Assembly: GCA_944385305.1 (NCBI GenBank) | Contig: CALWWS010000037.1 | Span: 1-19,313 of the forward strand | Source of the DNA: an uncultured Oscillospiraceae bacterium | GTDB taxonomy: Bacteria; Bacillota; Clostridia; Oscillospirales; Oscillospiraceae | DNA: 19,313 nt | Direction: 5' to 3' | Shown: piece after piece, positions 15,412 through 19,313 of the stretch | Layout: every line of letters begins with the position of its first letter | Numbering within the stretch: the first letter of the stretch is position 1 | Notes under the pieces: generated by a model | Database searches by the model: none | What the model was told of the DNA's origin: nothing | What the model saw: the letters and a program-made list of their open reading frames with translations, nothing else | Program-made: the position numbers and the translations under genes

Positions 15412-15446
15412 ACCAGGCGAACCGGTTCTGGAGAGGAGTGGGACAT

Positions 15447-15989
15447 GTGAATGACGAGGCGCTGATCCGGCGGTTGGCCGCGGGGAGCCGGACGGCACTG
15501 AATCAGGCGGTGGACCGCTTCACCCCCTATGTAAGCGCCGTGGCCTGGCGGGTGCTGGCCCCCTCCGCCGCCACGCGGGAGGATCTGGAGGAGGTTGTTG
15601 CCGACGTATTTTTGGCCTTGTGGAGCCACGCCATGGATATTGATCCCGGCCGGGTGCGCACCTGGCTGGGGGCGGTAGCCAAAAACAAGGCGGTGGATCG
15701 CCTGCGCACCCTCTCCCCCACCCTCCCCCTGTGTGAGAACGCCGCCGACCGCTCCCCCGGCCCTGAGGAGGAGACCCTGCTGCGGGAGCGGGCCGCCCGG
15801 CTCCTGGCCGCCGTGGAGGCGCTGGAGGAGCCCGACCGCACGCTCTTTCTCCGCCACTACTATGCAAACGAAAAGCTCAAGGATGTGGCCCGGGATCTGG
15901 GTATGAACCAGGCCACCGCCCGCACCCGGCTCCACCGGGGCCGCAGGCTGCTGAGGGAACAGCTGATGAAAGGAGGGGACGAACCATGA
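15447..15989 (+). CDS. ECF-type RNA polymerase sigma factor
   Basis: The 180-residue product has only sigma regions 2 and 4. Region 2 (about residues 18-88) contains DLEEVVADVFLALW and WLGAVAKNKAVDRLR. Region 4 (about 115-172) ends in the helix-turn-helix KLKDVARDLGMNQATARTRLHRGRRLL. This is the layout of extracytoplasmic-function sigma factors. GTG 15447 is preferred to GTG 15438 because GAGGAGTG (15433-15440) acts as its ribosome binding site. The stop overlaps the start of the following membrane protein gene by four bases (ATGA), the arrangement expected of a sigma/anti-sigma pair. The signal sensed and the genes controlled are not visible; the upstream promoter suggests it drives its own transcription. 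Confidence 0.92.
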   Translation: MNDEALIRRLAAGSRTALNQAVDRFTPYVSAVAWRVLAPSAATREDLEEVVADVFLALWSHAMDIDPGRVRTWLGAVAKNKAVDRLRTLSPTLPLCENAADRSPGPEEETLLRERAARLLAAVEALEEPDRTLFLRHYYANEKLKDVARDLGMNQATARTRLHRGRRLLREQLMKGGDEP

Positions 15990-17395
15990 GACAGCATCTG
16001 GATCAGCTCTGGCGCCAGGTATACCCCGACGGGACGCCGTGTCCCACTGTCCGTCCCGGCGATATCCGCAGCCGGGTCAACGCCGCGCTGGACGCCGCCC
16101 CCTCGGAGAGGAGACAACCGATGAGACACAAGACACGCTTTGCCGCCATTCTCACCGCCGCCGCGGTGGCTCTGGGGAGCACCGCACTGGCTGTCACCGT
16201 CCAATGGGATGTTCTGGACGCCTTTTTCCGGGGGGATACCTCCCCGGCGGAGACCCTGGTGGATCGACAAGCCCCGTCGGCCAACGATGAGAATTACACC
16301 TTTACCGTGGAGAGCTCCGTTTCCGACGGGGACACCGCCTACCTGGTGGTGCGGGTGGACGCCCTCACCGAGGATGCCGCCGTCCAGCTGTACTCGAAAT
16401 ACTTTTTGAACATGGACACCTTCAGCGTCTACCCCGTGGCCGACCCGGAGGAGCCTATCCCCGAAGATCTGGGGGTGGATGAGCAGACCGGCTGCAACAT
16501 ACCGGCCCGCAACGCCATGAGTATGGGGGTCAGGGAGATCAAGCAGGCCGCCACGCAGACCTCACGCACCTGGCAGCTGGACGTCTCCTTAGACTCCAAC
16601 GAGGCGGCAAATTACCTCCATGCCCGGCTGTGCTACATGAACCGGGCCTGCACCATCGCTCTGCCCCTCTCCCCCGCTGAAAGCGTCACTCTGGACATCG
16701 GGGCATCGGGGCCGGGCTCTCCCACCAGCGAAAACGCCCAGGGCGGAACTATCACCCTGGAGTCGGTGACCCTGAGTCCCTTTACCTGCCAGATTGCCGC
16801 CCGCCACGAGGACGGCAACAAAGAAGTGGATCCCCTGATCTTCTTCCTTCTGGAAGACGGGACGCTGCGCACCAGCGGACAGCTTCTGTTCCACAGCAAA
16901 ACCAGCTACCACAGTGACGGTACCGCCGACTACTCCTACCAGTTCCAGGAGGTGCTGGATCTCTCCCAGCTGTCCGCCGTGGTCTTTGACGGCACGGCCT
17001 ATCCCCTGGACGGCGGGGCAGCCTACGGGGTAGAAGTTGACTCCCGGCTGTATCCCTTCCAGCTCCCCCTGATGGATCGTCTCTCAGAGGACAGCGGCCT
17101 GGCCCTGCCTCTGGAGGCCCTGTATGAGGCGCTTGGCGCCTCCTACACCTGGGACGGGGAGGCTCAGACCGCCGTCTGCTCCTATCGGGGCGTTACTCTG
17201 GAGCTCACCGTGGGCAGCCGCACCGCCCTGGTAAACGGCGTGCCTGTAGCCCTGGAGGATGCCCCCGCCCTGCAAAACGGCATACTGGCCGTAGGCAATG
17301 ATATCTCGGATTTCCTGGGCCTCAATACCTTTGTGGTCTACAACACCGAAGAGGATAGTTTCCTCGATTACCTGTGCTGGATCGTTATCCCTTAA
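15986..17395 (+). CDS. Membrane anti-sigma-factor-like protein with C-terminal copper-amine-oxidase-N-like domain
   Basis: The 469-residue product has a short cytoplasmic head (about residues 1-50), one membrane span (about 52-70) and a large extracytoplasmic part. The outer part begins WDVLDAFFRGDTSPAETLV and resembles the DUF4179-type ectodomains of Clostridial anti-sigma proteins. The last 95 or so residues (LALPLEALYEALGASYTWD, then ELTVGSRTALVNG) look like the copper amine oxidase N-terminal stalk domain common on Firmicute surface proteins. No HxxxCxxC zinc anti-sigma motif is present; the head has only C19. It overlaps the sigma gene by four bases with AAAGGAGG before its ATG, so stoichiometric production and membrane sequestration of the sigma factor are expected. 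The role is inferred from position and topology; the ligand is unknown. Confidence 0.78.
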   Translation: MRQHLDQLWRQVYPDGTPCPTVRPGDIRSRVNAALDAAPSERRQPMRHKTRFAAILTAAAVALGSTALAVTVQWDVLDAFFRGDTSPAETLVDRQAPSANDENYTFTVESSVSDGDTAYLVVRVDALTEDAAVQLYSKYFLNMDTFSVYPVADPEEPIPEDLGVDEQTGCNIPARNAMSMGVREIKQAATQTSRTWQLDVSLDSNEAANYLHARLCYMNRACTIALPLSPAESVTLDIGASGPGSPTSENAQGGTITLESVTLSPFTCQIAARHEDGNKEVDPLIFFLLEDGTLRTSGQLLFHSKTSYHSDGTADYSYQFQEVLDLSQLSAVVFDGTAYPLDGGAAYGVEVDSRLYPFQLPLMDRLSEDSGLALPLEALYEALGASYTWDGEAQTAVCSYRGVTLELTVGSRTALVNGVPVALEDAPALQNGILAVGNDISDFLGLNTFVVYNTEEDSFLDYLCWIVIP

Positions 17396-17411
17396 TCTGC
17401 GCAAAAATAAG

Positions 17412-17450
17412 AACGGGCGTCCTTCGGAGAGGGGCGCCCGTTTTTTGTTT
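17412..17450. terminator. Bidirectional terminator between the sigma/anti-sigma operon and rpoD
   Basis: ACGGGCGTCC (17413-17422) pairs with GGGGCGCCCGT (17431-17441), allowing G-T pairs, and is followed by TTTTTT on the plus strand. On the minus strand it is followed by TTCTTATTTTT. It lies right after the outer copy of the rpoD 3' end (17449-17494), as expected if it was the original rpoD terminator. Confidence 0.85.
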
Positions 17451-17494
17451 AGTTCAAAAAGTCCTTCAGCTTCTTGCTTCTCGAAGGATGGCGC
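17449..17494 (-). repeat. Outer (vestigial) copy of the rpoD 3' end
   Basis: These 46 bases match 17649-17694 at 45 positions, with an offset of exactly 200. Read on the minus strand they encode the last 14 residues of RpoD (starting RHPSRSKK) plus a TAA stop. The single difference (AAC for AAT) is synonymous. This copy is no longer joined to the rest of rpoD but sits directly against the terminator. Confidence 0.95.
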
Positions 17495-17648
17495 GTCGTC
17501 GCCGCGGACTGCGTATCCCTCCCCTCCGCCCCTGGGCGAAGGCTCGCTCACTCCGTCGCGGCTCCTCTCCCCACGCGACCCGCTGCGCTGGGCTCGCGCG
17601 GGGGCCCCGAAAATTGCGCCCCTATAACAGAAAGCACGTCGCTCCCCG
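17495..17648. other. GC-rich non-coding insert between the two rpoD 3' ends
   Basis: This is 154 bp of sequence without a credible gene, bounded by the 46-bp direct repeats. Its middle (about 17540-17610) is very GC-rich with many TCGCG/CGCGA and GGCTCGC-like words that can fold, for example CGCGA (17575-17579) with TCGCG (17594-17598). It resembles the dispersed GC-rich intergenic repeats of gut Clostridia, but I cannot check other copies. With the adjoining repeats it accounts for the whole gap of about 250 bases between the anti-sigma gene and rpoD. Confidence 0.6.
17609..17620. repeat. 12-bp inverted copy of the rpoD coding sequence inside the insert
   Basis: GAAAATTGCGCC here is the exact reverse complement of GGCGCAATTTTC at 17690-17701, within rpoD codons just before the duplicated tail. 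The match stops sharply at both ends. In the rpoD transcript the two could pair across a 69-base loop that contains the end of the coding region and the stop codon. Confidence 0.85.
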
Positions 17649-17694
17649 TTAATTCAAAAAGTCCTTCAGCTTCTTGCTTCTCGAAGGATGGCGC
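17649..17694 (-). repeat. Inner (functional) copy of the rpoD 3' end
   Basis: This copy forms the present end of rpoD, from the last base of codon 421 through codons 422-435 and the stop. It is the partner of 17449-17494. No terminator-like hairpin with a T run follows it directly; transcription would continue through the insert to the hairpin at 17412-17450. Confidence 0.95.
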
Positions 17695-18956
17695 AATTTT
17701 CTCAGGGCCTTGGCCTCAATCTGGCGGATGCGCTCCCGGGTGACGCTGAACTCCTTGCCCACCTCTTCCAGAGTGCGGGTGCGGCCGTCCTCAATGCCAA
17801 AGCGGAGCTTGAGCACCTTCTCCTCCCTGGGGGTGAGGGTACCCAGCACATCCACCAGCTGCTCCTTGAGCAGGGTAAAGCTGGCGGCCTCGGAGGGCTC
17901 GGAGGCGTCCTCGTCGGGGATGAAGTCCCCCAGGTGGGAGTCCTCCTCCTCGCCGATGGGGGTCTCCAGGCTCACCGGCTCCTGGGCGATCTTCAAAATC
18001 TCCCGCACCTTGTCCACCGGCATGGACATCTCCTCGGCGATTTCCTCGGGGCTGGGGTCGTGGCCCAGCTCCTGGAGCAGCTGCCGGGAGACCCGGATGA
18101 CCTTGTTGATGGTCTCCACCATGTGTACCGGAATGCGGATGGTGCGGGCCTGATCGGCGATGGCCCGGGTGATGGCCTGGCGAATCCACCAGGTGGCATA
18201 GGTGGAGAACTTATAGCCCTTGGTGTAGTCAAACTTCTCCACGGCCTTGATAAGGCCCAGATTGCCCTCCTGGATCAGATCGAGGAAGAGCATGCCGCGG
18301 CCCACATACCGCTTGGCAATGGAAACCACCAGGCGCAGGTTGGCCTCCGCCAGGCGCTGCTTGGCCGCCTCACCCCGGCGCTCCAGCCGGTGCAGCTCCT
18401 GCATCTCCTCGGGGCTGAGCTCAATTCCATCCCGCTCCAGCTCCTCCAGCTGCTCCTTGGCGGCGTCCCCCGCGCCCATGTCCTGGGCCAGCTCAATCTC
18501 CTCCTCAGGAGTGAGCAGGTTAACCTTACCGATCTCCTTGAGGTACATACGCACAGGATCGTCAATGCCGAAGGAATCCACCAGAGTGTTGGGGTCGACG
18601 ATCTCCTCCTCGGGCAGCTCCTCCAGCTCCTCAATGGGGGGTACCGCCTCGTCAGCCAGCTCAGGCAGGTAGTCATCCCCCACCGTGTCAATGCCCAGGT
18701 TCTCCAGAGTGTCATAGATCTTGTCCATCTGGTCGCTCTCAAGATCCATGTCATCCAGCACATCCATCAGTTCGCTGGCGGAGAGCTTCCCCTTCTTCTT
18801 GCCACGCTCGATGAGTTCGCCCAGCTTTTCCGCACCCTGGATACCCTCTACGACCTTCATCACTTCGATCTTGCCCTGCTCCATCTTCTCCTCGTTGGAC
18901 AGGCGGGGCTTATCCTTGCCAAGCGCCTCAGGCGCGGTCACTTTCTTCTCGCTCAT
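17649..18956 (-). CDS. rpoD: Primary RNA polymerase sigma factor (sigma-70/sigma-A)
   Basis: The 435-residue product is the housekeeping sigma factor. Region 1.1-like acidic N terminus spans about residues 20-125; region 1.2 includes [17 protein letters not shown] (132-148). Region 2 (198-280) contains [29 protein letters not shown] and the -10-recognition helix around [15 protein letters not shown]. Region 3 spans about 281-360, and region 4 (361-435) ends with [26 protein letters not shown] 18956 is chosen because the ribosome binding site GGAGGGTGA lies just upstream, overlapping the dnaG stop codon; the frame is open further upstream, but that region is dnaG. The gap to dnaG is four bases, the conserved dnaG-rpoD arrangement. 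The 3' end is unusual: its last 46 bases recur 200 bp downstream, so the terminator now lies about 200 bases beyond the stop. Confidence 0.98.
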
Positions 18957-18960
18957 GCGC

Positions 18961-19313
18961 TCACCCTCCATAGCCTTTTTTCTCTCTGAATTTTTCCCGC
19001 GCGGCAAGCAGTGGGTCCACCTGCGCCGCCCCGGAGCGCTTGAGCGCCTCGGTTTCAATGGTCTGTATGTAGTCTTCCATGGCCTGGCCGCTGTTGGCCA
19101 GAACCTGGGGCTGGTCAATCACGCCGGCCAGATGGCTCATCTCTTCCGCCGTCAGCTCTCCGGTCAGGGCTGCCAGCTGGGTACTGCGCCCCTCCCGGTG
19201 CCGCTCGCTCAGCAGCCGGTAGATTTTCCCCAGCAGCGGGGAGGAGAACTGCCCGGGCGCAAGCTGTCCGGCCCGGGCGAAGAGGCCGGGATCCAGCATC
19301 AGCAGCCGGATGA
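18961..19313 (-). CDS. dnaG: DNA primase, C-terminal part (5' end outside window)
   Basis: The frame is open to the window edge; about 116 residues of the C-terminal end are visible. They read [16 protein letters not shown], then [17 protein letters not shown] and [20 protein letters not shown]. This is the helical pattern of the DnaG C-terminal region that binds the replicative helicase DnaB/DnaC. The catalytic zinc and TOPRIM domains lie outside the window. It ends in GYGG four bases before rpoD, and its last codons form the rpoD ribosome binding site, so the two are translationally linked. The identity rests on this weakly conserved domain together with the position upstream of rpoD, which is where dnaG is found in most Firmicutes. 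Confidence 0.85.

Follow-up and report, generated by a model that had tools for sequence, protein, structure and literature searches.

The CGTC-tagged REPs, as far as the available text of Di Nocera et al. (2013; PMC3733652) describes them, are dispersed palindromic repeats that are often transcribed downstream of genes, each consist of one short hairpin with an 8-9-bp stem and a 4-5-nt loop, and occur in five phyla without Firmicutes, and no dedicated transposase is reported there. The repeat family that we describe here from the 3' end of rpoD in an uncultured Oscillospiraceae bacterium is likewise dispersed and palindromic, no dedicated transposase was found for it, and most of its cores end in GACGA, GACGC or GACGT, the reverse complement of (T)CGTC. 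Unlike the CGTC-tagged REPs of that text (PMC3733652), it has a core of ~110 nt with two hairpins and is accompanied by duplications of gene tails. By size and structure it is not one of the described CGTC REPs; it is a family of structured mobile repeats in Oscillospiraceae-type bacteria, REP-like in kind. Full-text literature searches returned no description of this family or of gene-tail doubling with an inverted arm.

Other elements share single features with the repeat. As in eukaryotic SINEs and target-primed reverse transcription, its 3' end is precise and its 5' side looser, and, as in SINEs, target duplications vary (19 of 153 copies) and extra sequence lies at the 5' junction; unlike for SINEs, a reverse transcriptase partner was not found here and an RNA intermediate is only hypothetical. 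Rickettsia palindromic elements are also small repeats that sit inside genes and RNA genes with function kept, but they insert codons within the frame. MITEs are similarly short, non-autonomous copies, yet they are bounded by terminal inverted repeats and make duplications of short, fixed length, whereas here the core ends are unlike each other and the duplications span 20-85 nt and are mostly absent; an origin as the MITE of a DDE transposon was rejected on these grounds. Group IIC introns insert by hairpins too, but are ribozymes with a reverse transcriptase. The bridge RNA of IS110 carries two target-derived arms, one per strand, that overlap at the cut. Our repeat resembles it in outline only, with paired target-derived arms overlapping at the cut, but these flank the core instead of sitting in loops, and no recombinase was found.

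The 3' end of rpoD is duplicated around a 154-bp insert

The window, by which we mean the whole 19,313-nt stretch of DNA analysed, is contig C37 of the source genome G000, an assembly that is 80% complete and comprises 1.8 Mb in 266 contigs. On its minus strand lies rpoD (17649-18956, within an open reading frame of 17649-19118), named from the encoded protein and from rpoD matches among relatives, with its stop at 17649 and a start ATG at 18956 picked by eye. A repeat search confirmed the duplication that the original prediction had reported for the 3' end of this gene: 46 nt at 17649-17694 (the inner tail copy, x + T1) recur on the same strand at 17449-17494 (the outer tail copy, x + T2), with 45 of 46 positions identical (98%) and a start-to-start distance of 200. 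Both copies encode the same 13 residues and stop, their sole difference being synonymous (AAT/AAC, Asn), and the reading frame closes in the inner, working copy.

The insert between the tails (17495-17648) holds a feature that was missing from the earlier description, namely a 12-nt exact inverted copy, X' (GGCGCAATTTTC, 17609-17620, minus strand), of the rpoD segment X (GAAAATTGCGCC, 17690-17701, minus strand), which is the gene DNA where the duplication begins. The last 5 nt of X (17690-17694) overlap the start of the duplicated tail. From the rpoD stop to X' there is a 28-nt spacer (17621-17648), which measures 26-30 nt across 12 rpoD loci. X' is followed by a structured repeat core (17496-17608) that consists of GGGG (17605-17608) and a match to our covariance model R1 (17496-17604, 103.8 bits) ending in GACGA; spacer and core are likewise read on the minus strand, and a single base, 17495, separates the core match from the outer tail copy. 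The RNA of the window is predicted to fold with an X:X' helix (z -3.7).

A terminator-like hairpin of 17 pairs (17409-17445) adjoins the outer tail copy, and the terminator scan of the window found no such site next to the inner copy, both as originally predicted. The hairpin had also been taken to be bidirectional; it was called on the + strand only, with an A run on its other side, and that it serves both strands is plausible as judged from sequence. Inserts of this kind place the native terminator farther from a gene such as rpoD. On the + strand, at 15438-17395, two genes run towards rpoD and stop at the rpoD terminator: one for an ECF-like sigma factor (183 aa) and, after it, one of 469 aa that is perhaps its partner, both named by eye.

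The insert is one copy of a dispersed structured repeat

In a DNA search of 60 genomes, rpoD was matched, and the middle of the insert was also matched at scattered places elsewhere. Alignment of 17 cores gave a consensus element of ~110 nt with two hairpins and 24 pairs, 19 of which had two-sided changes, and covariation was present in both hairpins. The covariance model R1 matched 21 of 40 genomes (E<=0.01), including the source genome, where at least three R1 places were found (on C37, C208 and C188); G329 has at least 58 (E<=0.001). These copy numbers are lower bounds, with 96 candidates scored per genome and 150 in the G329 search. Across 102 distinct rows of an alignment that was fitted to R1, 96.1% of cells were paired, against 68.3% when shuffled and 35-47% when slid. 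G-U pairs are frequent (e.g. 70 of 94 lettered cells at columns 13-50), which favours the rpoD sense strand, rather than its complement, as the one that would fold. The 3' end of the core is sharp, with exceptions such as GACGG and GAGCT to the endings given above, and the 5' side is less sharp and often GGGG.

No Rfam family matched the core when the window stretch and 12 loci were searched (E<=1, E<=0.5), and a group I or II intron or another described RNA was rejected as its identity on this basis. The original prediction had pointed to this genome and to mobile DNA as places where the unit might recur: the repeat was indeed found elsewhere in the source genome, phages gave no match to the insert, and plasmids gave one partial match, to the core (82 nt, 79%, in a Subdoligranulum record).

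It is well supported that the rpoD insert is a copy of a dispersed, mobile, structured non-coding repeat and that the duplication was made with the insertion. One of the two origins offered earlier, a mobile non-coding repeat, is borne out by this. The other, a scar left at an att site by an excised integrative element, has in our estimation almost no chance of being correct. The frame-restoring duplication of a gene end does recall att sites, but here a single repeat family, with many copies per genome, lies at many unrelated genes, and each locus duplicates DNA of its own gene, whereas a single att site would not give a different gene-derived duplication per locus; the phage and plasmid results argue in the same direction.

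In G329, cores form dense clusters (L260-L265), with 13 within ~37 kb of C12 and 10 within ~91 kb of C4; a gene-cassette array on C12 was rejected because the longer ORFs between copies, in the stretch that was listed, look by eye like ordinary housekeeping genes. A further repeat, TGTCATTCCGAGGAGCGAAGCGACG..., encloses core copies in G001 (L114-L117, L119), a genome of the same family; this enclosing repeat resembles TGTC/CGTC-type REPs.

Copies adjoin RNA genes and double the ends of protein genes

We read 153 copies in two sets. The first, of 86 (93 rows minus seven, namely L050 and six weak ones), was drawn from the DNA search and the better R1 matches and is therefore not a random sample; the second, of 67 (70 rows minus three), covers 53 of 58 places in G329, 13 of 14 in G398 and one of six in G100. 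As called by ARAGORN and one rnpB sequence motif, the core 3' end lies -1 to +3 nt from a tRNA, or at an rnpB motif, in 17 of the 86 and eight of the 67 copies, and by eye five further copies (L039, L113, L129, L285, L297) are at or next to the 5' end of what we take to be tmRNA. About one-fifth of the copies read adjoin tRNA, tmRNA or RNase P RNA. Where a copy adjoins a tRNA, it meets either the 3' end of an antisense tRNA or the 5' end of a tRNA in sense. At L142 (G042), two tandem cores sit inside the presumed RNase P RNA gene, in the place that we take to be helix P12. Such inserts can lead to misannotation where genes end, in tRNA flanks and in RNase P RNA.

In 19 of the 153 copies (17 cases outside rpoD, the window and L004), the element is directly followed by a repeat of the neighbouring gene's end, and most copies have no duplication. 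The 17 cases are what remained of 24 non-rpoD rows after seven had been removed by hand as intergenic, tRNA or other-repeat matches. The genes concerned, whose names we presume from the encoded peptides, are aspS, serS, tpiA (three tandem units), EF-G (two genomes), PFOR (three), an OppD-like gene (three), crt, lepA and two that are unnamed; lepA is an exception in that the gene start, in antisense, is duplicated and not the gene end. The recurring order, shared by aspS, tpiA, PFOR, crt and others, is arm X, working tail, spacer, inverted X', element and second tail. The second tail begins 5-8 nt ahead of the end of X, which in most cases places the end of X 5-8 nt into the duplication; in L266:7899, X ends at about the duplication start. 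At gene ends the duplication begins -3 to +5 nt from the element's 3' end, and its length varies (20-85 nt or more).

The inverted arm X' was found in eight of the 17 non-rpoD gene-end cases (shuffle p<=0.005, 200 shuffles each), and a ninth gave p = 0.035. The automated search did not find it in nine of the 17, in one of which, a tpiA copy, it is visible by eye; X' at L158 is visible by eye and was missed by the automated search. A fixed ruler from X to X' was rejected, the distance being 67-71 nt at rpoD and 52-167 at other genes. Some junctions take other forms: the flank at serS is a plain 41-nt direct repeat, the core at two EF-G loci and at L111, a PFOR locus, lies within the second copy and the flank is direct instead of inverted, and at tpiA the duplication ends before the stop codon and filler supplies the stop of the inner copy. 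Some tail pairs are nearly or fully identical, as at PFOR (47/47) and tpiA (77/79), and a gene drive by recoded tails was rejected for this reason. A parasitic repeat can thus repeatedly enter the ends of essential genes harmlessly by doubling the end that it breaks.

The rpoD site in relatives

The rpoD query was matched at E<=1e-30 by 307 of 400 genomes of the family. Among the matches listed, 11 genomes, G000 included, matched the whole query, and G236 and G278 matched up to position 320; with G426 (genus g22) added, 12 rpoD loci carry the arrangement, 11 of them outside G000. Since the same layout is present in 11 other genomes, one of which, G291, is a single contig, an assembly artefact is unlikely. 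The original prediction had named presence of the arrangement in all relatives as evidence that would speak against insertion, and this is not what was found: of the 19 g22 genomes with a match, five have an intact unit, one (G429) a decayed unit and 13 none. The core was absent from all 80 rpoD loci from named and MAG records, some of which end close behind the gene; the best of these 80, from Pseudoflavonifractor sp. An184, reached 86% in its best segment.

An empty site is provided by G340, a congener of G398: beyond its outer copy, G398 matches the native flank of G340. The duplication in G398 passes the stop (TGATGCA) before filler starts, and its outer copy has lost the stop codon and carries an L->R change. 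From the stopless outer copy and the G340-like flank it follows that in G398 the inner tail works and the outer one runs on into what was once the native flank, which upholds the earlier proposal that DNA entered the 3' end of rpoD and that the doubled tail preserves the protein.

At the 12 rpoD loci, each X' agrees with its own X in 9-11 of 11 positions; the mean is 10.6 and falls to 9.5 when partners are swapped. An equally good result came from 13 of 50,000 permutations, and from 517 of 50,000 when permuting was confined to nine loci regarded as a single lineage. This covariation suggests that X:X' pairing would be kept in the transcript. In a FastTree tree of 104 cores, which are short sequences taken without support values, nine rpoD cores (G000, G398, G361, G426, G111, G329, G204, G415, G026) have rpoD cores as nearest neighbours, while those of G155, G315 and G291 join other cores. 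On this grouping, the rpoD site has probably taken about four hits by the core and a further one, in G100, by another insert, core B.

Core B is a second structured insert with the motif CCAAAACCTTGATGCCG or one close to it, and lies between doubled tails at rpoD in G100 (L171), where it has its own X' (10 of 11), and at crt in G426 (L411). It probably represents a separate repeat family that inserts in the same way. Other g22 genomes carry, between doubled crt tails, core A (G329, G431) or, in G021, a third, different insert of roughly 170-180 bp (L405), and crt is empty in G429, G433, G415 and G424. An empty tpiA site was also found in this genus. At L109 and L111 in G021, core B lies upstream of core A.

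Divergence between the rpoD tails is largely synonymous

Over the 12 rpoD loci, the two tails differ synonymously in 35 codons and non-synonymously in four (35/39), whereas about 20% synonymous would be expected from random single changes. A dead outer tail should decay, as it has by eye in G429, where the core is deleted. The 12-locus pattern could come from gene flow with empty alleles, from conversion between the direct repeats or from real use of the outer tail. Such use is what one would see if the 200-nt unit were removed from RNA or DNA in some cells, by intron-like or precise excision, with both tails selected. The synonymous excess and the decay that accompanies core loss in G429 fit this reading, and the X:X' helix both spans the left junction and covaries; we nevertheless regard it as unlikely, given that Rfam holds no matching intron family, that gene flow or direct-repeat recombination could also preserve the outer tail, and that in G398, G361 and G111 the outer tail is partly decayed, with its protein changed, despite a core that matches R1. 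An identical T-to-G change (CTG to CGG, L to R) occurs in three outer tails (L154, L157, L184), and the stop has changed from TGA to GGA in two, so both changes are recurrent.

A proposed nick-primed route of insertion and its alternatives

We consider it likely that the rpoD arrangement is a structured mobile repeat inserted by nick-primed copying with two template switches. A nick in the gene-complementary strand at the right edge of x would give a free 3' end, which would be extended by 5-8 nt along the target DNA with displacement of a 5' flap; the growing end would switch to the 3' end of an element template (RNA or single-stranded DNA) and copy it to its 5' end. In a second switch, the displaced flap would be used as template and copied to its end, yielding the inverted arm X', which would stop at the nick because it would be a run-off copy of the flap. 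A second nick, 20-85 bp downstream and in the other strand, would leave a gene tail to either side, with filler joining the ends. The gene would survive because its tail is doubled, and X and X' would be able to pair in the transcript. This scheme, whose nick and template-switch steps were fitted to these same loci, would account for the exact 3' junction, the 5-8 nt overlap, the inverted arm that ends at the nick, the varying duplications and the filler at the last joint; loci without X' and the majority without a duplication fall outside the full scheme, and may be old or have had both nicks at one place. Its junction rule, with the duplication at the element's 3' end and the inverted arm 5-8 nt inside, makes the copying mechanism of repeats for which no transposase is known testable.

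RVT_1 was absent from six of 11 copy-bearing genomes (G000, G019, G022, G004, G001, G017) and present in five, and no core lay near nine reverse transcriptase loci. One of the six, G019, is 100% complete and has at least 48 matches. The reverse transcriptase may have been lost from copy-bearing genomes or be very divergent in them. No enzyme stood out as recurrent when the ORFs around 119 core loci were compared, and a recurrent protein beside the cores was rejected, the listed clusters being shared target-gene neighbours or repeat-derived frames.

A more speculative reading, to which we give little credence, is that a structured RNA element homes in an RNA-directed manner by means of guiding arms, X' and xT, and leaves a spare gene tail. 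X' would pair with one strand on the left of the cut and xT with the other strand on its right, and the arms would share an overlap of 5-8 nt, as half-guides do in a bridge RNA. If true, arm-guided homing with a spare gene tail would let essential genes be hit without harm.

Under insertion through DNA alone, which we rate as possible though short of probable, a Y1/HUH (RAYT-type) enzyme would move the REP-like hairpin in the form of single-stranded DNA, or the hairpin would spread as replication switches templates at hairpins; doubled tails and inverted arms would then be by-products of repair, retained as only products with an intact gene survive. Genes for Y1_Tnp do occur in nine of 11 genomes tested, but the repeat flanks none of the 16 Y1 loci (of 25) that were scanned with R1, and a RAYT/REP system with a Y1 transposase was rejected as its source, as was a TnpB/omega-RNA element, PF07282 being present in two of 11 genomes with no core at the seven TnpB loci scanned. 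Long target duplications would also be unexpected for Y1 transposition. More in keeping with a DNA route, core A, core B and the third insert all show the same doubled crt tail. Moreover, the loops of terminator hairpins are inverted between the two EF-G copies (L109) and between congeners at rpoD (G389 and G424; L186 vs L187), where strand switching at hairpins is a possible cause.
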